Below are positions 11,127 to 34,221 of a DNA stretch of 64,000 nt, in pieces. The notes beneath the pieces were generated by a model. It was given only the letters and a program-made list of their open reading frames with translations, was not told where the DNA came from and ran no database searches. Source of the DNA: Georgenia satyanarayanai (GTDB taxonomy: Bacteria > Actinomycetota > Actinomycetes > Actinomycetales > Actinomycetaceae); contig NZ_UETB01000009.1 in the NCBI RefSeq assembly GCF_900116375.1, forward strand, positions 62,001 through 126,000, in the 5' to 3' direction. The position numbers and the translations under genes were made by a program. The number at the start of each line of letters is the position of its first letter. The first letter of the stretch is position 1.

Positions 11127-11807
11127 ATGCCTACTGACGCACCCGGTGCCGTCCTGCTCGACATCGACGGGACCCTGGCCGACTCCAACTACGTCCACAC
11201 CTTCACCTGGGCCCGGGCCTTCCGCGAGGTGGGGCACCCGGTCGACGCCTGGCGCATCCACCGCTCCATCGGCATGGGCGGGGAGCTGCTCCTCGCCGAG
11301 CTGCTCGGGGACCGCGTCGACGAGCTGGGGGAGGCCGCCAAGGAGAAGCACACCGAGTACTACGCGCAGGCCGCGGAGGAGGTGCACCGCTTCGACGGCG
11401 TCGTCGAGCTCGTCGCCGCGCTCAAGGAGCGCGGGACGAAGGTCGTGCTCGCCACCTCCGCCGCTCCCGCGGAGCTGGAGATCCTCGAGCGGCTCCTCGG
11501 GGTGTCAGACGACGTCGACGCCATCACCTCGGCCCAGGACGTCGAGGAGGCCAAGCCGGACCCGGACCTCGTGCAGAAGGCGCTCGACGCGGTCGACGTC
11601 CCGGCCGAGCGGGCCGTCTTCGTCGGCGACACCGTGTGGGACGTCGAGGCCGCCGCCCGGGCGGGTGTGCCGTGCGTCGGCGTGCTCACCGGCGGCGTCG
11701 GTGAGGGCGAGCTGCGGGACGCGGGGGCCGTGGCGGTCTACCGGTCCGTGGCCGCCATCCTCGAGGACCTCGACTCCTCCCCGCTGCGCCACGCCTGGGG
11801 CGGCTGA
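11127..11807 (+). CDS. HAD-superfamily phosphatase (phosphoglycolate phosphatase-like)
   Basis: A 226-residue subfamily IA HAD hydrolase. Motif I is LLDIDGTLADS (nucleophile and acid Asp), motif II LATSAAPAEL, motif III lysine in EEAKPDPD, motif IV VFVGDTVWDVEAA. The cap domain lies between residues about 20 and 85. Members hydrolyse small phosphate esters such as phosphoglycolate; the substrate here is unknown. The ATG at 11127 is the first start that leaves motif I at the expected distance (about 15 residues). It converges with udgX, with a long hairpin between the stops. Confidence 0.87.
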   Translation: MPTDAPGAVLLDIDGTLADSNYVHTFTWARAFREVGHPVDAWRIHRSIGMGGELLLAELLGDRVDELGEAAKEKHTEYYAQAAEEVHRFDGVVELVAALKERGTKVVLATSAAPAELEILERLLGVSDDVDAITSAQDVEEAKPDPDLVQKALDAVDVPAERAVFVGDTVWDVEAAARAGVPCVGVLTGGVGEGELRDAGAVAVYRSVAAILEDLDSSPLRHAWGG

Positions 11808-11822
11808 GCCCACTCGCCTCGG

Positions 11823-11868
11823 CAACGTGTGGACTTTCGACCCCAGAGGTCGCAAAGTCCACACGTTG
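11823..11868. terminator. 15+5 bp intergenic hairpin between convergent genes
   Basis: Perfect 15-bp arms CAACGTGTGGACTTT (11823-11837) and AAAGTCCACACGTTG (11854-11868) enclose a further 5-bp stem CGACC/GGTCG, one unpaired C and a CCAGA loop. It sits between the convergent HAD and udgX stops, so it could terminate both. Sequence symmetry far exceeds what termination needs, and a dispersed palindromic repeat is possible. Confidence 0.6.
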
Positions 11869-11885
11869 TCCTCGGGTCGGGGCGG

Positions 11886-12515
11886 TCAGCCTCCCGCCGC
11901 GGCGCTCGCGGCGCGCAGGTCGGTGACCAGCTCGGCGAAGGCCTCGTCCCAGCCGCCGCGCCCGCGCAGCCGCAGCAGCGCCGAGGGGTGCGTCGTCACG
12001 AGCACCGGCAGGTCCTCGCCGTCGAGGACCTCGCCGCGCACGTCCCCGATGCGCACGTCCCGTCCCAGGACGGCGCGGGCCGCCGTCGCGCCGAGACAGA
12101 CGACGACGGCGGGGCGCACCGCGGCCCGCTCGGCCGCCAGCCACGGGTGGCAGGCCTCCACGTGCGCGGCCCCGGGCTTCTTGTGGATGCGGCGCTTGCC
12201 GCGGTCCTCGAAGCGGAAGTGCTTGACGGCGTTGGTGAGGTAGACGTCCTCGCGGGCGATGCCCGCCGCCTCCAGCGCGTCCGCCAGCACCCGCCCGGCC
12301 GGCCCGACGAAGGGCTGACCCTCCCGGTCCTCCCGGTCACCGGGCTGCTCACCGACGAGCATGAGCCGTGCGCCGGCCTCGCCGGCGGAGAACACCACCT
12401 GGGTGGCGTCGGCCCACAGCTCGCAGCCCCGGCAGCCGGGCGCCGCGGCACGCAGGGCGGCGACGTCACCGTCCGAGGGCACCCACTCCTGGGCGCCGGG
12501 TCGCTCCGCGGCCAT
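11886..12515 (-). CDS. udgX: uracil-DNA glycosylase superfamily protein UdgX
   Basis: A 209-residue family 4-like uracil-DNA glycosylase. The motif GEQPGDRED (residues 55-63), FVGPAGRVL, and the UdgX-specific loop KRRIH ending at H111 are all present; VTTHPSALLR is the C-terminal motif. In Mycobacterium smegmatis UdgX the KRRIH histidine (H109) forms a covalent bond with DNA after uracil excision and helps hold a 4Fe-4S cluster; the cysteines here (CRGCEL, HVEACHP, VVCLG) fit cluster ligation. The ATG at 12515 stands 6 nt after a TACGGT -10 box and is preferred over the long upstream extension. Role: DNA uracil processing, inferred from family. Confidence 0.88.
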   Translation of the reverse strand: MAAERPGAQEWVPSDGDVAALRAAAPGCRGCELWADATQVVFSAGEAGARLMLVGEQPGDREDREGQPFVGPAGRVLADALEAAGIAREDVYLTNAVKHFRFEDRGKRRIHKKPGAAHVEACHPWLAAERAAVRPAVVVCLGATAARAVLGRDVRIGDVRGEVLDGEDLPVLVTTHPSALLRLRGRGGWDEAFAELVTDLRAASAAAGG

Positions 12516-12587
12516 GGGCCCACCGTAGGCAGCGGCGTGCCTCGCCGCGCGTCGGCTCGGGCCTGCGGCGCCCGTACCGTTGTCCCC
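12516..12587. promoter_or_regulatory. divergent promoters of udgX and the LmeA-like gene
   Basis: On the minus strand TACGGT (12527-12522) precedes the udgX ATG by 6 nt. On the plus strand TACCGT (12575-12580) precedes the ATG at 12588 by 7 nt. Both spacings imply leaderless transcripts starting at or next to the start codon. No convincing -35 boxes are visible. Confidence 0.6.
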
Positions 12588-26071: not shown

Positions 26072-26145
26072 GCGGGTGTAGTTCAATGGTAGAACTTCAG
26101 CTTCCCAAGCTGACGGCGCGGGTTCGATTCCCGTCACCCGCTCCA
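26072..26145 (+). tRNA. tRNA-Gly (anticodon CCC)
   Basis: A 74-nt cloverleaf with encoded CCA. The acceptor stem GCGGGTG pairs with CACCCGC, the D-arm is GTTC/GAAC, the anticodon stem TCAGC/GCTGA flanks loop TTCCCAA giving anticodon CCC, and the T-loop is TTCGATT. The discriminator base is T. The 3' 47 bp are repeated at 33529-33575, and an integrase gene begins 112 bp downstream, so it is the integration site of the following element. The tRNA itself stays complete. Confidence 0.97.
26097..26143 (+). repeat. attL: 3' part of tRNA-Gly
   Basis: Left copy of the 47-bp direct repeat. It begins in the anticodon stem and covers variable region, T-arm and acceptor 3' strand up to the first C of CCA. 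The base before and after differs from the right copy, so 47 bp is the exact identity. Confidence 0.93.
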
Positions 26146-26217
26146 CTGCAAAGATGCAGGTCAGAGCACCGCACACCCCCTCGGTTACGGTTCTCCTGGC
26201 CCCGCCCGATCGGCGAT

Positions 26218-26234
26218 CGTGCCACTACGTGCCA
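26218..26234 (+). promoter_or_regulatory. putative left integrase arm site
   Basis: Two CGTGCCA heptamers separated by 3 nt (CGTGCCACTACGTGCCA). The right end of the element has the same pattern with one mismatch. Such short direct repeats flanking the core are typical arm-type binding sites of the integrase N-terminal domain or excisionase. Confidence 0.5.
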
Positions 26235-26257
26235 CAACGACGCCGATAGGACACCAC

Positions 26258-27619
26258 ATGGCGCCCCGCAAGAAGCACCGCCGAGCGTTCGGGAGCCTGC
26301 GCAAGCTGCCCTCGGGCCGCTACCAGGCCCGCTACCCCGTCGACGGGGAGGCCGCGATGCGCTCACTCGGCACCTTCGCCACCCGCCGTGAGGCCGAGGA
26401 GGCGCTCGCGGTCATCCAGTCCCAGATGGTCCAGGGCGCGTGGCGCGACCCCCGGCTGGGGGAGGTGGCGCTCGGCGCCTACGTCGGCGACCTCATCACG
26501 TCCGCCACCCACCTGCGGGAGAGCACCCGTGCCCTCTACGCCCGGCTCCACCGAGAGTGGATCGACGCCGACCTGCCCGCAGAAGGCCGCGGCGGCAACG
26601 GGCGTGGGGTCAAGCTCGGCGGCCGGTCGATCGGGACATTGACACCGGCCGACGTGCGCGAGTGGCACGGTGCTGTCCACAGGGAAGCCGAGCGCCGGGC
26701 CCTCGACCGCCACGCCCGCGCCGCGACCGCCCCCTCGCGCGTCAACGCTGCGATCCGCGCCTGGGCGGCCGGCAACGGCAGGTCCGTCGCCACGACCGGA
26801 CGTATCCCAGCGCACATACGAGATGCGTGGGAGAAGGCCGGAGGGCTCGACCTCATCACCGCCCCGCGCGAAACTGTCAACGCCGGCAAGACCGAGCCGG
26901 CACAGGCGTACCGGCTTCTCCGTTGGGCGCTCGGGCACGCTGTCGACGATGGCCTCCGCGCGGACAACCCCTGCAAGATTCCCCACGCCGGCCAGGCCGA
27001 CGAGTTGCTCCGACAGGAGCGCACTCCGGCCACCGTCGTGGACGTGCAGAACATCGCTGCGGCGATGCCCGCGCGCTATTCCGCAGCCGTCTGGCTCGCG
27101 GCGCTCAGCGGTCTCCGGGCCGGCGAGCTCTTCGGTCTCCAGCGGCGGCATGTGAACCTTACGACCGGCGAGCTGAGGGTCGTGCAGGCCCTGGTCCCAG
27201 GCACCGCAGGTGCAGTAGGCGCGCCGAAGACCGCAGCAGGCAAACGTGTCGTGCACCTCCAAGGTCCAGCGCTCGCAAGCCTGGTGGAGCACATGGCGAC
27301 GTACACCGCCGCTGGCAAAGACGCATTCATCTTCTCCACCGCCTCGGGCCGACCCTTGGACTCGTCCAACCGCAGCAAGGTCTTCCGTCGCGCCGCTCAG
27401 GGCGCGGGACGCCCGGACCTTACCTGGCACGACCTCCGCCACACGGCCGCCCTCTACGCAGCAAAGAGCGGCGCGACCGTTGCCGAGCTGCAAGCCCACC
27501 TCGGTCACTCGAACGCACGTGCCGCGATGCGCTACCAGCACGCCGTCAAGGGATCGGCCGCCAGGTTGGCCGCGGGGATCGCCGACTACGTGCAGGGCGA
27601 GCTCACAGCCTCTGCCTGA
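26258..27619 (+). CDS. int: tyrosine site-specific integrase
   Basis: A 453-residue phage-type integrase. A basic N-terminal arm-binding segment (MAPRKKHRRAFGSLRKL, then SGRYQARY) precedes a core-binding domain (about 60-250) and a catalytic domain with R287 (SGLRAGEL), H391-x2-R394 (HDLRH), H417 (LGHS) and nucleophile Y426 (MRYQH). The ATG at 26258 is chosen over an earlier GTG because the conserved basic arm begins there and the arm-type repeats lie upstream. It sits next to attL in the tRNA gene and reads into the element. Closest in style to actinobacterial pSAM2/phage integrases. Confidence 0.95.
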   Translation: MAPRKKHRRAFGSLRKLPSGRYQARYPVDGEAAMRSLGTFATRREAEEALAVIQSQMVQGAWRDPRLGEVALGAYVGDLITSATHLRESTRALYARLHREWIDADLPAEGRGGNGRGVKLGGRSIGTLTPADVREWHGAVHREAERRALDRHARAATAPSRVNAAIRAWAAGNGRSVATTGRIPAHIRDAWEKAGGLDLITAPRETVNAGKTEPAQAYRLLRWALGHAVDDGLRADNPCKIPHAGQADELLRQERTPATVVDVQNIAAAMPARYSAAVWLAALSGLRAGELFGLQRRHVNLTTGELRVVQALVPGTAGAVGAPKTAAGKRVVHLQGPALASLVEHMATYTAAGKDAFIFSTASGRPLDSSNRSKVFRRAAQGAGRPDLTWHDLRHTAALYAAKSGATVAELQAHLGHSNARAAMRYQHAVKGSAARLAAGIADYVQGELTASA

Positions 27620-27943
27620 CGGGCACAGTCCGGGATGCGTTTCTACGACGACGCCCGCGTCGACGTCCTCAATCACAAGACCGACTCGGGCGACCGGTCA
27701 TGGCGGTCCTGAGGCGGAGGGAGATGCTGGCTTCGGGCGAATCCACGGGGGCGTTGCGCGAGCTGAACCGCCTGTTCTTCCCCACGAATCTCCCGAACCG
27801 GCGCGCTGTGGTGCCGCTCGGTGCACGGCCAGGACCGTCGGTGTCGGGCGCGCTCCATAGCGTTATTGGCGACCAAGCCGAGCGTGTCGGTGGCCCACGG
27901 CACCGAGCGTCACGGCGTTCCAGCACGTCGCCACGGAGAAGAC
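27620..27943. other. non-coding stretch in the element
   Basis: 324 bp between integrase and excisionase. Short open frames exist on both strands but none has convincing codon bias, Shine-Dalgarno or recognisable product. It may hold the excisionase promoter; no clear -10/-35 pair is visible. Confidence 0.5.
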
Positions 27944-28177
27944 ATGCCCACCCACAGCACCATCGTCGAGCGCCGCAGGAGTGCCGCCTCCGACATGGAC
28001 CCCTTCCTCAAAGTCCCAGAGGTCGCCGCCTACCTCGGCACCTCGGAGCGCTACGTCCGCAACCTGGTCGCCGACGGTTGCCTGACGACTTTCCGGCCCG
28101 GCCGGCGTGTGCTCGTCCGCCGGTCAGCCGTGGACGCCTTCATCACCGCGCACACGTCCCCTGCGGTCGGTCGGTGA
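27944..28177 (+). CDS. xis: excisionase-like helix-turn-helix protein
   Basis: A 77-residue MerR/excisionase-type DNA-binding protein. The sequence FLKVPEVAAYLGTSERYVRNLV (split FLKVPEVAAYLG, TSERYVRNLV) is the winged-helix recognition part, and PGRRVLVRRSAVDAFI the wing. It matches the HTH_17 excisionase family, which bends DNA at attachment sites and directs the integrase towards excision. The ATG at 27944 has GGAGAAG a few bases upstream. Order int-xis-rep, all rightward, resembles a rearranged int/xis/rep module of actinomycete integrating plasmids. Confidence 0.85.
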   Translation: MPTHSTIVERRRSAASDMDPFLKVPEVAAYLGTSERYVRNLVADGCLTTFRPGRRVLVRRSAVDAFITAHTSPAVGR

Positions 28178-28301
28178 GTACGCACGCCCCGGTGGCAGAC
28201 GACACCTCCCTCGATAAGTACCTCCAAACACATCACCCGCGGTCCCCTGGCCGCGCTGCCCGTCCAAGGGGCACGTCGAGATCCGTCGAGCGTCGGGTCA
28301 A

Positions 28302-28895
28302 GTGGCCTCTTGGCGCTGCGGGAGCTTGAGGTGCCACGCATGTCTCGTGCCTCAGGTGCTTGACCAGGCTGCGGCAATCTCCCTCGCGCGTCCTCGTCAC
28401 CTGCTGACGCTGACGCAGGTGGGGCCACGCTGGCCCGCCGTCAAGCGGGCCATGGCAGCCTTCCTGCGCTCCCTGCGGGGTTCCGTGGCGCCCGTCGAAG
28501 CCGTTTACCACGTTGAGGCCAATCCCGGCGGGACGGGCAACCACATGCACCTGTGGGTGCGGTCGTCCCGACTTCCCCGGCGGGCCGTCGCCTCGGCCGT
28601 AGCCTGCGCCGGGTTCGGGACCGTATTCGACGTCCGGCGCGTCGAACTCCCCGCCGAAGGGCAACGCCTCCAGGCCACGACCTACGGGATGAAGGCGTGC
28701 CTCCAACGCCCGGCTGGCGCCACGGGTCTCTGGCCTGCCGCCGAGCAGTACCTCACCCTCAACGGCGACCGCCTCGAGCATCACACGCGCGACTTCTACT
28801 TGGACAGGTCGGGAAGCCCGGCTGGTGGGGTCCGGGCGGCGATCAGGGAGGCCCGCCAGCAGTACGGCCTGAGGGGAGGGTGGGCGACCGTTTGA
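28302..28895 (+). CDS. HUH-endonuclease / rolling-circle Rep-like protein
   Basis: A 197-residue protein with the three features of rolling-circle initiators: a Cys pair cluster near the N-terminus (WRCGSLRCHAC), the HUH metal motif H81-M-H83 in NHMHLWVR, and a Tyr-x2-Lys motif Y128-G-M-K131. Mid-sequence ILTL-like strand LLTLTQVGPRW fits Rep motif 1. It is short compared with full plasmid Rep proteins (about 300-450), so it may be a minimal or truncated initiator. The GTG at 28302 keeps the cysteines; no strong Shine-Dalgarno is seen. Replicative behaviour of the element is an inference. Confidence 0.6.
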   Translation: MASWRCGSLRCHACLVPQVLDQAAAISLARPRHLLTLTQVGPRWPAVKRAMAAFLRSLRGSVAPVEAVYHVEANPGGTGNHMHLWVRSSRLPRRAVASAVACAGFGTVFDVRRVELPAEGQRLQATTYGMKACLQRPAGATGLWPAAEQYLTLNGDRLEHHTRDFYLDRSGSPAGGVRAAIREARQQYGLRGGWATV

Positions 28896-29162
28896 CCTTT
28901 GCCCTGCGAGGTCACCGGTTTCCAGTACTGAGTGGGTCTGTTGGCCGGGGTGCCAGGGTCCGCCTCCGGGCGGCTGGCACCGTGCGAGGAAGCACCAACT
29001 AGCTGGCCTGCACCTCGAAGAACGCGCCCCTCCGCGACGGCGGCCCGTCGATGTGGCAGTTATGTCGGTCGCCAACGCGCGCGCACGTACGACACCCGAG
29101 CGATCCGTGCCGGCTCGCCGGGCGTTCCCGATAGGCTCGGAGCGGGCGGAGGAGGCTCTAGG
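28896..29162 (+). promoter_or_regulatory. intergenic region with promoter of the restriction-modification gene
   Basis: 267 bp without a convincing gene. A TAGGCT -10-like box at 29132-29137 is followed by GGAGGAGG and the TTG start at 29163. No clear -35 box or operator palindrome is seen, and there is no C-protein gene. Confidence 0.45.
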
Positions 29163-32100
29163 TTGACGCAGACAGCACAGTGGCTCGCGAAGGCGGTCTC
29201 CACTTTCGGTGATACCTGCAAGGCCAAGTTGTCCGGCCCTGGCGACCGGGAGGCCGCGATTCGCGCGCCGCTGGAGGCCCTCCTCGGTGCGGCCGGCGAC
29301 CGACTCGGCGTGGATGCCGTCTTCCACGACGAGGTCCGCGACACCGAACGTCAGGTGCGCCCCGACTACGGCGTGAGCGTCAAGGGCGCTATCACGGGGT
29401 ACGTCGAGGTCAAGGCCCCCGGTCGTCACATCGATCCCGCGAGGTTCACCGGCCATGACAAGCGGCAGTGGGAGCGTCAGCGCGACCTGCCGAACCTCCT
29501 CTACACGAACGGCACCGACTGGCGGCTGTACCGGGACGGTGACCTGCACGCCGGCCCCGTAACGTTCGGCAGCGGCTCCCTGGCGCTCGCGGGCGCCGGC
29601 CTCACTGCCCCGCCCGAGTTCGAGTCGCTCATCACCGACTTCCTCCGCTGGAAGCCGGCGCCGATCACCTCAGTGGGCGCCCTCGTGCGGGCGGTCGCGC
29701 CGCTCACCCGGCTGCTGCGCGGGGAGGTCCTCGACCAGCTCCAATCCGAGGACAGCGCCATCCGTGCCGGCGCCGACAAGTGGTCCCAGCCCTTCACCGG
29801 ACTTGCCAACGACTGGCGTGCCCTCCTCTTCCCCACCGCCGACGACGACACCTTCGCCGACGGCTACGCCCAAGCCGTCACCTTCGCCCTGCTGCTCGCC
29901 CGCACCGAGGGAATCGACGTCACCGGCCAGCCGCTGCACGAGATCGGCGCCGCCCTCGGCGACGACCACTCCCTCATGGGCCGTGCCCTGCAACTGCTCA
30001 CCGACGACGTCGCCGCGGACTTCCGCGTGACGCTCGACCTCCTCGTTCGTGTCATCGGCGCTGTTGACTGGGCGCGGGTGCGACGCGGGCGACGCGACAC
30101 CTACCTGCACCTCTACGAGAACTTCCTCGAGCAGTACGACAACGACCTGCGCAAGCAGTCCGGCTCCTACTACACGCCCCGCGAGATCGTCGACGAGATG
30201 GTCCGCCTCACCGAGGAAGCCCTGGTCGCAAGGCTCGGCCGAGAGCGCGCCTTCCGCGACCCCGACGTCCTCACCGTCGACCCGGCGATGGGCACAGGCA
30301 CCTACCTGCACACCATCCTGGAGCGCGTCGCGGAGCACACCGAGGCCGTCGACGGGCCCGGTGCGGTAGCGGGCGTGGTACGTCAGGTGGCAGAACGCCT
30401 GGTCGGCTTCGAGCTCCAGATGGGCCCCTACGCAGTGGCCGAGCTGCGCGCCACCGACCTGCTTGCGTCCCACGGTGCCAGCGCGCCGGCCAGCGGCATG
30501 CGCTTCTACGTCACCGACACCCTCGACGACCCAGCCGCAGCCGAGACCCAGATCGGCTCTGGCCTGCGCCTCATCGCTGAGTCTCGCCGGCGCGCCAACG
30601 AGGTCAAGCGCCGCGCCAACGTCACGGTCGTCATCGGCAACCCGCCCTACCGAGAACGAGCTGAGGGCATGGGCGGCTGGGTGGAGAAGGGCAGCGAGGC
30701 CCACGGCAAGAACGCACGCGGGATCCTGGAGGACTGGCGCGACCCGGACACCGCGCGCCACTTTCACAACCTCAAGAACTCCTACGTTTACTTCTGGCGG
30801 TGGGCAAGTTGGAAGGTGTGGGAGTCGACTCCCCACGACGCCGACGACGGAGACGCCGGCGTCATCTGCTTCATCTCGACCTCCGGGTACGTCGGGGGCC
30901 CCGGATTCACCGCGATGCGGGAATACCTACGCCGAGAAGCCTCCGAAGGCTGGGTCATCGACCTCACGCCCGAGGGGCAGACCCCGGATGTGCCGACTCG
31001 AATCTTCCCAGGCGTACGCCAACCCCTCGCCATCGGCCTGTTCATCCGCAAGGCGGACGCGATGGGCGATGTCCCGGCGACGATTCACTACCGCGCCGTG
31101 CATGGGCGCCAGGCCGAGAAATTCGCCGAGCTGTCCCGGATCTCACTCGACGACGACGGTTGGAGGCTGGCGCGCACAGACTGGACTGCACCGCTTACCC
31201 CGTCGGCCGACACGGCGTGGGACACGTACCCGGCGCTCAACGACCTGCTTCCGTGGACGTCTCCCGGCGTCACGGGTAACCGGCGGTGGCCGTACGGCCC
31301 TTCGTCCCGCGTGCTGGAGCGGAGGTGGCGGATGCTCCAGGCCGAGGCAGATCCACGAGCGCGCGCGGAACTGTTCAAGGAGACGGGCGACCGATCTCTC
31401 ACAAGCCGCCCTCAGCCGCTGCCGCTAGTGGTCGACGCACCCTCGGATTCCCTCGCGCAGGACCGCGGAGCGTCGATGAACCCTGTGCGGGTGGGATACC
31501 GGAGTTTCGACCGGCAGTGGCTGATTCCCGATGCCCGCGTCCTGGACCGTGCACGACCCGACCTTTGGGCGGCGCGCGTCCGCGGCCAAGTGTTCACGAT
31601 CGAGCAGCACTCCAAGGTGATCGAGGATGGCCCGGGCCTCGTGTTCTCGACCCTCATCCCCGACATGGACCACTTCAATAACCGCGGCGGCCGCACGCTC
31701 CCACTGCTGTATCCCGACGGTAGCCCGAACCTCGCGCCTGGTGTCATTCGTGCCCTCTCGAAGGAGTTGGGTCGCCAGGTCACCGCGAGCGACGTGCTGG
31801 CTTACGTGGCCGGCGTCGTTGCCCATCCCGGCTTCACCCGAACCTTCGCCGACGAGCTCACCACCCCCGGAATTCGCGTGCCCCTGACCGCCGATGCGCA
31901 GCTGTTCGCCGACGCGGTCGCGCTCGGTGAGCAGGTGGTCTGGCTGCACACCTATGGTGAGATGTACGCCGGCAGCGACCGCCCGAGGGGCGATGTCCGA
32001 TACCCGCCCGGCGATGAGCGCCAGCCCAAGGCACTTACACCGATCACGACGATGCCGACTGGGGCAACCTACGATGCCAACCGTGCTGTCGTTGTGCTCG

Positions 32101-32480
32101 GGGACGGCGAGTTCGGACCGGTGCGCGAGGAGGTCTGGGACTACGCCGTCGGCGGCAAGAACGTCATCAAGTCGTGGGTGAACTACCGCAAGGCCGAGCC
32201 GGGCGGGAAGAAGAGCTCACCGCTCGACCACGTCCACGTGGATGAGTGGGACCCGGACTGGACCACCGAGCTCATCGACCTGTTCACCGTGCTGACCCGA
32301 CTCGTCGAGTTGGAACCCGAGCAGGCAGAACTGCTCGAGCGCGTCCTCGCCGGCCCGCTACTGACGATGGAGGAGCTCCGCCTCGACGGGGTGCGCTGGC
32401 CCGCGAGTGCTGCCGACCGCAAGCCACGCCACGGCTTCGAAGCGCGCACCGACGACACCGTCCCAGCCTTCGATCTCTAG
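29163..32480 (+). CDS. single-chain nuclease-methyltransferase (type ISP/IIL-like restriction-modification enzyme)
   Basis: A 1105-residue fusion. Residues about 1-150 form a PD-(D/E)xK nuclease with D68 and E82-V-K84 (PDYG ... YVEVKAPG). A helical linker follows to about 330. The N6-adenine methyltransferase has SYYTPREIVDEM, motif I DPAMGTG (D373-G379) and motif IV NPPY (N493-Y496). The remaining 500 residues form the type ISP-like specificity/C-terminal domain. No DExx-box helicase motifs are visible, unlike LlaGI-type ISP enzymes, so the layout is closer to MmeI-like type IIL. TTG 29163 is chosen for GGAGGAGG 7 nt upstream and because homology-like sequence starts there. Likely phage defence; self-contained methylation and cutting. 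Confidence 0.87.
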   Translation: MTQTAQWLAKAVSTFGDTCKAKLSGPGDREAAIRAPLEALLGAAGDRLGVDAVFHDEVRDTERQVRPDYGVSVKGAITGYVEVKAPGRHIDPARFTGHDKRQWERQRDLPNLLYTNGTDWRLYRDGDLHAGPVTFGSGSLALAGAGLTAPPEFESLITDFLRWKPAPITSVGALVRAVAPLTRLLRGEVLDQLQSEDSAIRAGADKWSQPFTGLANDWRALLFPTADDDTFADGYAQAVTFALLLARTEGIDVTGQPLHEIGAALGDDHSLMGRALQLLTDDVAADFRVTLDLLVRVIGAVDWARVRRGRRDTYLHLYENFLEQYDNDLRKQSGSYYTPREIVDEMVRLTEEALVARLGRERAFRDPDVLTVDPAMGTGTYLHTILERVAEHTEAVDGPGAVAGVVRQVAERLVGFELQMGPYAVAELRATDLLASHGASAPASGMRFYVTDTLDDPAAAETQIGSGLRLIAESRRRANEVKRRANVTVVIGNPPYRERAEGMGGWVEKGSEAHGKNARGILEDWRDPDTARHFHNLKNSYVYFWRWASWKVWESTPHDADDGDAGVICFISTSGYVGGPGFTAMREYLRREASEGWVIDLTPEGQTPDVPTRIFPGVRQPLAIGLFIRKADAMGDVPATIHYRAVHGRQAEKFAELSRISLDDDGWRLARTDWTAPLTPSADTAWDTYPALNDLLPWTSPGVTGNRRWPYGPSSRVLERRWRMLQAEADPRARAELFKETGDRSLTSRPQPLPLVVDAPSDSLAQDRGASMNPVRVGYRSFDRQWLIPDARVLDRARPDLWAARVRGQVFTIEQHSKVIEDGPGLVFSTLIPDMDHFNNRGGRTLPLLYPDGSPNLAPGVIRALSKELGRQVTASDVLAYVAGVVAHPGFTRTFADELTTPGIRVPLTADAQLFADAVALGEQVVWLHTYGEMYAGSDRPRGDVRYPPGDERQPKALTPITTMPTGATYDANRAVVVLGDGEFGPVREEVWDYAVGGKNVIKSWVNYRKAEPGGKKSSPLDHVHVDEWDPDWTTELIDLFTVLTRLVELEPEQAELLERVLAGPLLTMEELRLDGVRWPASAADRKPRHGFEARTDDTVPAFDL

Positions 32481-32534
32481 GCGTCGAGTCGGTCGCTCTC
32501 CATTTTCACCTCCACCTCCGAAAGGCCCGACGTC

Positions 32535-33335
32535 GTGCAGTTCACCGTTCCTCCAGGGTGGCCCCAGCCGCCCCAGGGCTGGACTCCTCCTCCCGCGTGG
32601 CGTCCCGACCCGTCCTGGCCACCGGCGCCCCCCGGGTGGCAGTTCTGGCAGCCCTCCTCTGTGCTCGCTACCTAGGTGCCTGGCCAGGTCGAGCGACCAG
32701 CCGCGACGTCTGACCCGTACGTCCGGGAGGAGATCGCTCAATTGCCGCCACCGGTCCAGCGTGCCCTTGGGGTGCGGCCGGCGAAGGTCGACAACGCAAT
32801 CGCATGGGCGTTGCTCTCGTGCCGGTGGGGCTCATCTTGCTGGACATCGTTTTGCTCCAGCAGGGCATCTCCCCGTTCAGCCTGGTGTCGATCCTGCTCG
32901 CGCTCGCGTTAGGCAGCGGCCTGATGGTGGTCGACCGCCCGGATCCTAGAGCGTCAAGGGCAGCCGGCACCCAGCCTGTGGTACTTGGTGATCGGCGGGG
33001 CGCCGGTCTACCTGGTGCAGCGCAGGAGGCTGCTCGGGCAGTCGTGGGCGACACCCCTGGTGTGGCTCGCGTCGGTCCTTGCGTACCTCGCCTCGGCGGG
33101 CGTTGTCGGGATGCTGGGGGGCGTGGAACTCGATCCGGCGACCCTGGAGTACGAAATTGAGCAGGGGTACAGGGAGTACGGCGAGAGGGCCGTGGTCGAC
33201 TGTCCGGATTCGGCCATCGCGCCCGTCGGGGGGAGCGTGTCCTGCTGGGCGACCTTCTCCGATGGCTCCGTGGCCGAGGGCGTCATCACCGTCGAGAACG
33301 CCCAGGGCTGGTTCACCTGGCAGGAGTCCTGGTGA
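32535..33335 (+). pseudogene. degraded membrane protein gene with PPGWP-type N-terminus
   Basis: The N-terminal part (GTG 32535) has the actinobacterial PPGWPQPPQGWTPPP / PSWPPAPPGWQFW motif, ends at an in-frame TAG (32673-32675), and continues in the same frame to AKVDNAIAWAL. Near 32810 one base appears lost and the frame moves (VPVGLILLDIVLLQQG, membrane helix). At the C-run 32938-32940 one extra base restores the first frame (DRRILERQG, then two helices). The end is a DUF4333-like external domain (VDCPDSAIAPVGGSVSCW) to 33335. One stop and two opposite indels indicate recent decay; sequencing error is the alternative. Confidence 0.7.
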
Positions 33336-33528
33336 CGCACGTTGGGCGAGGGTCGGGACGAGCACGGGACCGTCGGGCGAAGCGTCCCCGCTACTCTCGC
33401 AGGCTGGCGTGCCAGTACGTGCCATTCACCCGTGTTACTCGGTGCATCTCGGTGCATCCCCATGTAACGTCGGACCCGCACGACCTTGCTGATCTCAACG
33501 CAGCGGCGGGGATAGGTGTCGCCGCCCG
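33336..33528. other. right end of the element, non-coding
   Basis: No gene. Contains the right arm-type site, a tandem decamer CTCGGTGCAT (33439-33448 and 33449-33458), and nothing else recognisable before attR. Confidence 0.5.
33408..33424 (+). promoter_or_regulatory. putative right integrase arm site
   Basis: CGTGCCAGTACGTGCCA matches the left-end site at 26218-26234 in 16 of 17 bases and in orientation. It lies 104 bp inside attR, against 74 bp from attL for the left copy. Confidence 0.5.
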
Positions 33529-33575
33529 TCAGCTTCCCAAGCTGACGGCGCGGGTTCGATTCCCGTCACCCGCTC
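33529..33575 (+). repeat. attR: partial copy of tRNA-Gly 3' end
   Basis: Right copy of the 47-bp direct repeat. It lacks the acceptor 5' strand and D-arm, so it cannot fold as a tRNA. Dcd starts 67 bp downstream, suggesting tRNA-Gly and dcd were neighbours before integration. Confidence 0.93.
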
Positions 33576-33642: not shown

Positions 33643-34221
33643 GTGCTTCTCTCCGACCGTGACATCCGGGCCCAGATCGACGGCGGGCGGGTCCACCTGG
33701 ACCCCTACGACCCCGCGATGATCCAGCCCGCCAGCATCGACGTCCGGCTCGACCGGTGGTTCCGGCTCTTCGACAACCACCGCTACCCGGTCATCGACCC
33801 GGCGCAGGACCAGTCCGAGCTGACCCGGCTCGTCGAGGTCGCCCCGGAGGAGCCCTTCGTCCTCCACCCCGGGGAGTTCGCGCTCGGTGCCACCCACGAG
33901 CTCGTCACCCTGCCCGACGACATCGCCGCCCGCCTGGAGGGCAAGTCCTCCCTCGGGCGCCTCGGCCTGCTCACGCACTCGACCGCCGGCTTCATCGACC
34001 CCGGGTTCACCGGCCACGTCACCCTGGAGCTGTCGAACACCGCGACGCTGCCCATCACGCTGTGGCCGGGGATGAAGATCGGGCAGCTGTGCTTCTTCCA
34101 GCTCTCCAGCCCGGCCGAGCACCCCTACGGCTCCGGGGCGCAGGGCTCCCGCTACCAGGGGCAGCGGGGACCCACCGCCTCCCGCTCCCACCTGAGCTTC
34201 AGCCGGACGCACCTGGTCTGA
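33643..34221 (+). CDS. dcd: dCTP deaminase (bifunctional dUMP-forming type)
   Basis: A 192-residue trimeric dUTPase-fold enzyme. It closely follows mycobacterial Dcd, with [58 protein letters not shown] and YQGQRGPT. The mycobacterial enzyme converts dCTP to dUMP directly, so the same is likely here, supplying thymidylate synthesis while avoiding dUTP. The GTG at 33643 is 6 nt after CACAAT, a leaderless arrangement. The stop shares a base with the next ATG. It is the first chromosomal gene after the integrated element. Confidence 0.95.

Follow-up and report, generated by a model that had tools for sequence, protein, structure and literature searches.

The 64,000-nucleotide stretch of Georgenia satyanarayanai DNA analyzed here (assembly GCF_900116375.1, contig NZ_UETB01000009.1, positions 62,001 to 126,000; hereafter the window) carries a 7.4 kb insert between a tRNA-Gly(CCC) gene and dcd, which we read as a site-specific element with a lambda-type integrase, into which an Lsr2 DNA-binding domain was inserted once and repurposed, and with a Type IIG restriction-modification enzyme as its cargo. 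We assign this reading a probability of roughly 65%. We found no description of such a family, and an integrase with an Lsr2 domain is not named in the titles and abstract openings listed by the literature searches, a coverage that leaves out most subscription papers. A sequence-only reading of the window had already pointed to a compact defense island at this tRNA gene, but it missed the main novelty, namely the Lsr2 domain within the integrase, along with the family of elements to which the insert belongs. Window coordinates refer to the forward strand, and all features located by them lie on that (+) strand.

Insertion at the tRNA-Gly/dcd Site

Two copies of a 47 bp core repeat frame the insert, as the sequence-only reading had proposed, and they are 100% identical, with a start-to-start spacing of 7432 bp. 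The left copy (attL, 26097–26143) forms the 3′ end of the complete target gene, tRNA-Gly(CCC) (26072–26145, located with ARAGORN), and the right copy (attR, 33529–33575) stands behind a degraded 5′ tRNA half (33506–33528) as part of a poorer tRNA-like match, with Rfam scores of 73.2 bits on the left vs 36.9 bits on the right. The genes between the repeats encode the integrase, an excisionase, a candidate Rep protein, a Type IIG nuclease-methyltransferase, and a decayed membrane/DUF4333-like product; the G+C content of the element is slightly below that of much of its surroundings, and the host gene dcd (dCTP deaminase, 33643–34221; Pfam DCD, 1.6e-48) follows beyond attR.

The element has been inserted into a tRNA-Gly/dcd neighborhood, as had also been suspected, because this site is uninterrupted in four of the five same-genus genomes (G001, G002, G004, and G005, the last of which is 57% complete). 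Each of these four has a single tRNA-Gly(CCC) directly 5′ of dcd, and the window flanks, once joined, align with them through the tRNA; two carry one exact 47 bp copy, and the other two carry one differing tRNA-Gly(CCC). No second copy was present in the four 3.6 kb loci, such that element-free relatives with both 47 bp copies, which the sequence-only reading had named as a counterexample, were not seen. The Lsr2-containing part of the integrase had no match at 1e-5 in any of the five congeners, one of them being the 57% complete G005. In the fifth congener, G003, a Fic-family gene lies between tRNA-Gly(CCC) and dcd (L035:3373–4608), with one 47 bp copy in the stretch examined; this spot seems to be a hotspot. 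More broadly, dcd was matched in 38 of the 39 genomes searched (its own genome counted), and tRNA-Gly(CCC) is present in the dcd loci of 20 of the 29 relatives fetched (the four empty-site congeners included), often in the opposite orientation.

An Lsr2 Domain within the Core-Binding Domain of the Integrase

The integrase (453 aa, 26258–27619; Pfam PF00589, Phage_integrase 1.1e-20) is a tyrosine recombinase, a class that shares the catalytic set R, K, HxxR, H/W, and Y, and the corresponding R, K, HxxR, H, and Y motifs were located in it by position and alignment. It consists of a presumed arm-binding N-terminus, a core-binding domain that is split by the Lsr2 insert, and the catalytic domain. 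The Lsr2 DNA-binding domain (26744–26839, with a Thr-Gly-Arg hook) is recognized by PF23359 at 1.2e-9, with 37.8 bits vs the curated Pfam cutoff of 26.9, as well as by the PHROG Lsr2 family at 2.3e-8. A profile of the embedded region, built from seven integrases, matches the Lsr2 structures 2kng, 6qkp, and 6qkq at ~3e-8, with no other match in the PDB below 0.2. By profile and by PDB sequence match, the integrase thus has the C-terminal DNA-binding domain of the Lsr2 silencers; no Lsr2 N-terminal domain was seen in it.

The window genome has two places with an Lsr2 domain match at 0.001, the chromosomal lsr2 gene and the integrase. When used as a query, the Lsr2 fragment of the window matches its own locus and otherwise only places in 13 of 200 same-family genomes, all 13 of which are genuine Lsr2 proteins, and the corresponding fragment of a second integrase of this type (L037) picks up one genuine Lsr2 protein in genome G817. 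A chance similarity between helix-turn-helix (HTH) folds was considered as an alternative and ruled out, because Lsr2 structures are all that the profile finds below 0.2 and each of the 13 loci read from the reverse matches encodes a true Lsr2 protein.

The insert comprises ~70 residues. Measured from a point shortly ahead of the second core-binding helix up to the NPC motif that follows it, the segment spans 123–134 aa in all ten Lsr2-type integrases described below, compared to 58–60 aa in 11 of 12 plain integrases and 71 aa in the remaining one; the extra residues fall between a pair of putative core-binding helices. Among phage proteins, the five that match best are ~30% identical over 96–97% of the query and 72–78 codons shorter than the query stretch that they cover. 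In its catalytic motifs, its two-sided arm-like repeats (see below), its accompanying excisionase, and its tRNA 3′-end target, the system resembles integrases of the lambda/L5 type; it differs from them in that its core-binding domain is split by an Lsr2 DNA-binding domain.

A Family of Elements with Lsr2-Type Integrases

The window element is one of ten elements, from four bacterial families, that encode such an integrase (the others being L066, L067, L068, L069, L070, L071, L100, L101, and L102). In a tree of 33 integrases, calculated from 373 columns with an occupancy of at least 70%, a filter that leaves out the insert itself, the ten Lsr2-type integrases form one clade with support of 100/99, and a single gain (or a single loss elsewhere) therefore suffices to explain the distribution of the insert. 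The tree holds 29 of 30 fetched loci (L047, which contains a stop, was dropped) together with L002, L092, L095, and L098, and the insert alignment covers 22 of these 33 sequences. No member of the clade is without the insert, although some of the members were found with the insert as a query. Taken alone, the Lsr2 domain match exceeds the cutoff in eight of the ten integrases; that of G763 falls short of it, and G288 has no match, its membership resting on alignment and tree.

The 30 loci come from a search of 394 genomes of the class, in which 97 had an integrase match at 1e-30 and the best 30 places were fetched. The remaining places were judged by their match range, most of which start after residue 200; two weaker places whose match begins ahead of residue 180, in G511 and G483, fall outside the inspected set, and the integrase loci of G373 and G314, which were read, contain no Lsr2 stretch. 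Searches with insert fragments found Lsr2-type integrases in at least 5 of the 245 genomes in one family (L037 fragment) and at least 3 of 249 in another (L039 fragment). These frequencies are lower bounds, as the best candidates of each genome were scored: four in one search, and up to 14, 15, and 18 in those with the L037, L039, and window fragments, respectively. A search of genome contigs returned one locus, from Mumia quercus, and a search of viral contigs with the integrase found no relative.

Four of the elements adjoin tRNA-Gly(CCC), four adjoin tRNA-Gly(TCC), and one each adjoins tRNA-Thr(CGT) and tRNA-Ala(TGC); in L102, too, the tRNA-Gly(CCC) has a dcd gene nearby (dcd read by eye). 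Repeats of the tRNA end bound nine of the ten elements, with spacings of 6139, 7416, 7432, 7958, 8177, 15107, 15993, 16173, and 16343 bp. We note that L068 and L069 carry, besides the gene for the Lsr2-type integrase, another tyrosine-recombinase-like gene toward their distal end, which was confirmed by Pfam in L068 only.

Architecture of the Element Ends

Tandem repeats of 10 bp mark both ends of the window element, with an int-side site at 26218–26237 (CGTGCCACTA CGTGCCACAA) and a distal site at 33408–33427 (CGTGCCAGTA CGTGCCATTC). Their common pattern, CGTGCCANNA in tandem with a period of 10, has only these two matches in the 64 kb window, starting at 26218 and 33408, compared to 0.02 expected, for a pattern that was drawn from the two sites themselves. 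The arm sites of lambda-type integrases look like tandem end repeats of this kind, and we consider these repeats to be putative arm-like sites of the integrase. A second distal tandem repeat, CTCGGTGCAT twice (33438–33457), was found by a repeat search and is a candidate site for either the excisionase or the integrase.

The same architecture recurs across the family. In the nine bounded elements, exact period-10 tandem matches occupy 74 overlapping positions in the ends (17.9/kb) vs 6 in the interior (0.06/kb), and tandem matches with periods of 8, 9, 11, or 13 are absent from the ends, with three (0.72/kb) at a period of 12. Exact tandem 10-bp repeats are present in eight of these nine elements, the distal side of L100 being imperfect. 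The int-side motif starts +94 to +99 bp from the T-loop GTTCGA in eight of the ten elements (as a single copy in L100); L068 has an exact int-side motif only at +117, and L071 has none. A GGTCA motif (26159–26163 in the window, 37 bp past the first base of the T-loop GTTCGA) is found at +35 to +38 in six of the ten (the window, L066, L067, L070, L100, and L101), and five of these six also have a mirrored TGACC at −54 or −55, the window being the member without it. Among viral contigs, the arm pattern is present in 36 stretches, none of which has an Lsr2-type integrase by tblastn with the ten family integrases; two weak integrase matches were obtained, both outside the insert.

Restriction-Modification and Other Cargo

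The largest gene of the window element encodes a predicted single-chain Type IIG restriction-modification enzyme (29163–32480; Type_ISP_C 1.5e-76, PADLOC Type IIG 4e-297), with a probable TTG start after GGAGG at 29163 within an open reading frame (ORF) whose longest form starts at 28932. Its chain appears to bring together nuclease, methylase, and specificity functions, in the form of a nuclease-like PD...ExK stretch (the nuclease part being assigned by motif only), an NPPY N6-adenine methylase, and a Type ISP C-terminal specificity domain. These parts, within one chain, are shared with the Type ISP enzymes LlaBIII and LlaGI; however, LlaBIII has 1578 aa, compared to ~1105 aa in the window enzyme, which has no helicase match and in which the methylase match begins at residue 315. 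We assign it to Type IIG rather than Type ISP, whose enzymes have an SF2 helicase domain between nuclease and methylase, because of this shorter length and the lack of a helicase match. Together with the integrase and excisionase matches, this bears out the proteins that the sequence-only reading had named, with the exception of its Rep-like protein, discussed below.

Seven of the ten elements have a protein that matches a known or candidate defense family, where each match is to a single protein and the three elements without one were scanned in part: PADLOC was run on all seven chosen window proteins but on a subset of the ORFs in the other elements (for example, 4 of 8 in L068, 3 of 9 in L069, and 3 of 8 in L070). 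Besides the window enzyme, these are HEC-06/Orf5-like and Type IV-like proteins in L066, an MmeI-type enzyme and an LmuB-like ATPase in L067, an MmeI-type enzyme and a helicase in L101, a DzbB-like protein in L100, a protein of a candidate defense system in L102, and a restriction-modification enzyme of 1618 aa in L071, whose place inside the element is unbounded. In L101 (10399–15264, oriented), the MmeI-type enzyme shares one frame with an N-terminal stretch matching RNase_H_2. A block of ligase, enoyl-CoA hydratase-like, and transporter-like genes, identified by eye, lies beside the DzbB-like gene of L100 (11735–17332, oriented), and this metabolic-looking block indicates that the cargo extends beyond defense.

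Excisionase, Candidate Rep, and a Decayed Gene

The excisionase (77 aa, 27944–28177) matches HTH_17 at 3e-11 and TIGR01764 at 6.9e-13 (scanned from residue 11), as well as a PHROG terminase small subunit family at 1.7e-6, which we take as a reflection of the shared HTH.

Downstream of it lies a candidate HUH Rep gene (197 aa, 28302–28895), the start or intactness of which is uncertain. The sequence-only reading had called its product an HUH Rep-like protein, an assignment weaker than the others: the protein has a Cys-rich stretch, a His-Met-His motif, and a Tyr downstream, but it has no match in Pfam, NCBIfam, PADLOC, or PHROG up to 0.01, and matches no PDB sequence up to 1. Thirteen of the 394 class genomes match it at 0.01, comprising its own genome, one convincing relative in G509 (32% identity, 3.3e-11), and 11 weak matches, of which five were read and none was Rep-like. 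The aligned parts of the window and G509 proteins have Cys residues, the His-x-His motif, and the Tyr in common, and the G509 protein weakly matches Pfam REP_ORF2-G2P (0.011, below the cutoff). Further searches returned the window's own gene as the one match in 297 genomes of the order and G509 itself as the one match in 17 genomes of its family. Plasmid searches with each of the two Reps, a phage search with the G509 protein, and a search of viral contigs found no relative, and a profile of the two Reps gave no related-looking PDB match. As judged by eye, the similarity between the two extends upstream of the first ATG, GTG, or TTG in the window ORF, such that the gene may be decayed, with its start lost or unusual. 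With this weak assignment, the earlier suggestion that the element replicates, or spreads with help, is not borne out, and from its sequence a working rolling-circle stage is possible. In the int-xis-rep neighborhood of G509 (L084:6544–9085 and 11309–12568, oriented), the integrase is without an Lsr2 insert, and a gene that by eye may be Schlafen/AlbA-like comes next.

The distal part of the window element holds a decayed membrane/DUF4333-like gene (32535–33335, by eye), with coding pieces in two frames, a stop, and a DUF4333 match of 6.6e-6 that is just below its cutoff. Small membrane genes of this DUF2510/DUF4333-like kind (by eye) occur in the distal half of both the window element and L070.

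A Model for Recombination

Based on this architecture, we propose that the N-terminal arm-binding domain of the integrase would hold the tandem 10-bp repeats near both ends, while its core-binding and catalytic domains would act at the 3′ end of tRNA-Gly to insert a circular form of the element. The element would bring a new tRNA 3′ end with it, and the tRNA gene would thus stay whole. The excisionase would favor excision, reversing the integrase reaction. The core-binding domain of an ancestral integrase would have gained the Lsr2 DNA-binding domain once, most likely as an additional means of gripping or bending DNA beside the core, perhaps substituting for a bending protein of the host, with the AT-hook silencer function given up. 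Once resident, the Type IIG enzyme may protect both the cell and the element, and movement between cells would need a helper. That the Lsr2-type clade as a whole drives elements of 6–16 kb without transfer genes of their own, spreading defense systems mostly via tRNA-Gly, is a broader proposal that we put forward tentatively, at clearly less than even odds.

Alternative Explanations

There is some chance, albeit a minor one, that the element is instead a truncated actinomycete integrative and conjugative element (AICE) that has lost its FtsK-like TraSA, or that it is mobilized by an AICE. The accessible part of the published AICE description (PMC3218068), on which we base the comparison of the integrase, excisionase, tRNA target, and Rep, gives these as AICE modules, and the window element has the first three in common with AICEs. 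For the replication module, which in AICEs is RepSA, RepAM, or Prim-Pol, the window has an orphan Rep alone, and an adjacent primase-polymerase-like gene, which would also fit, is carried by L068, L069, and L102 (Prim-Pol Pfam, 2.1e-35 in L068, the one tested, and by similarity in the others). However, the TraSA-type gene that this source describes for AICEs is not matched in the family: FtsK_SpoIIIE matches neither any of the nine bounded elements nor the contig that carries L071, and the defining transfer module is thus missing family-wide, and not in the window alone. General profile scans of the seven window proteins also found no relaxase or capsid family; the candidate Rep could itself serve as a relaxase. 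The earlier description of a compact restriction-modification carrier without a transfer gene therefore holds, such that the sequence-only reading is supported in its insertion and carrier parts, and not in the part concerning replication and spread.

It is also conceivable, but in our view unlikely, that the Lsr2 insert has been inherited as a neutral passenger, in what is an ordinary tRNA-inserted genomic island. The hook sequence varies (up to Thr-Gly-Ala, in L039), the domain match falls below the cutoff in G763 and vanishes in G288, and some copies of the element are damaged, as would be expected of such a passenger. Nevertheless, the insert is retained in all ten members across four families, and the seven aligned insert regions keep a Trp, a Gly, and further residues of the Lsr2 part invariant despite being 32–44% identical to L037; the lack of an insert-less member in the clade points the same way, within the limits of a search that partly used the insert.

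We consider it quite doubtful that the embedded domain instead targets or tunes the integrase via AT-rich, Lsr2-coated xenogeneic DNA, tying recombination to host Lsr2 occupancy. Seven of the ten hosts have at least one Lsr2_DNA-bd match besides the integrase, but three (G412, G774, and G1062) have none. A phage Ku protein with a fused Lsr2 domain that keeps the Arg-Gly-Arg hook has been published (PMC8612146), and the accessible part of this work provides a precedent for grafting an Lsr2 domain onto a DNA-handling enzyme. In that case, however, the fusion is C-terminal, as opposed to an internal insert, and the first hook Arg is replaced in all ten integrases, which have Thr-Gly-Arg (six), Ser-Gly-Arg (one), Thr-Gly-Lys (two), or Thr-Gly-Ala (one), whereas the host Lsr2 and 13 of 13 same-family Lsr2 proteins keep Arg-Gly-Arg. 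The A+T content of the element ends is somewhat above the element mean on the left side of six and the right side of seven of the nine bounded elements, by at most 12.6 points (L069, left), which makes this reading slightly more likely, and the preferred one slightly less so, than we had first judged. The highest A+T content of a 25-nt stretch in the ends is 64% (L102), compared to 48% in the window, and none of the ends contains a long AT tract.

Finally, a phage satellite packaged by a helper phage is improbable, since, although the size of 6–16 kb, the tRNA site, the primase-like genes of some members, and the defense cargo are reminiscent of satellites, the PHROG matches of the seven window proteins fall into integration, Lsr2, HTH, and unknown-function families, with no capsid or packaging family besides the terminase-named HTH of the excisionase (1.7e-6), and the searches of viral contigs made here found no relative.

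Several observations weigh against the reading that we prefer, namely a site-specific element with a repurposed Lsr2 domain in its integrase. Our account of excision, the circular form, replication, and restriction is a prediction from sequence. The repeat period and arm pattern were chosen after viewing the sequence. The role of the Lsr2 domain is an inference, as no DNA motif is tied to it, and the single-sequence structure prediction of the integrase, at a predicted local distance difference test (pLDDT) score of 38, was not used. A residual AT preference of the domain could also persist, because the ends are above the element mean in A+T. At the family level, L071 lies near a contig end, where neither arm repeats nor a second core copy were seen, for which reason its cargo is assigned by position alone, and its integrase (L052), like the plain integrase L002, is a long branch of unsure placement in the tree. 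In the Mumia quercus copy (L041/L070), the catalytic HxxR end is missing from the integrase frame, and this copy looks defective although both tRNA repeats persist. The apparent partial decay of the Rep and membrane genes suggests that the window element may be stranded.

Implications

Silencer domains have a known role in guarding against DNA of foreign origin. In this family, such a domain is found inside an enzyme that inserts foreign DNA, at a spot expected to touch the recombination site. The integrase therefore lends itself to asking, in a simple way, whether host bending factors in site-specific recombination can be replaced by a domain from a nucleoid protein. The regular ends and tRNA-Gly sites make these elements a possible source of compact integration tools, and the family as a whole represents a group of small elements that are apparently moving restriction and other defense genes among actinobacteria.

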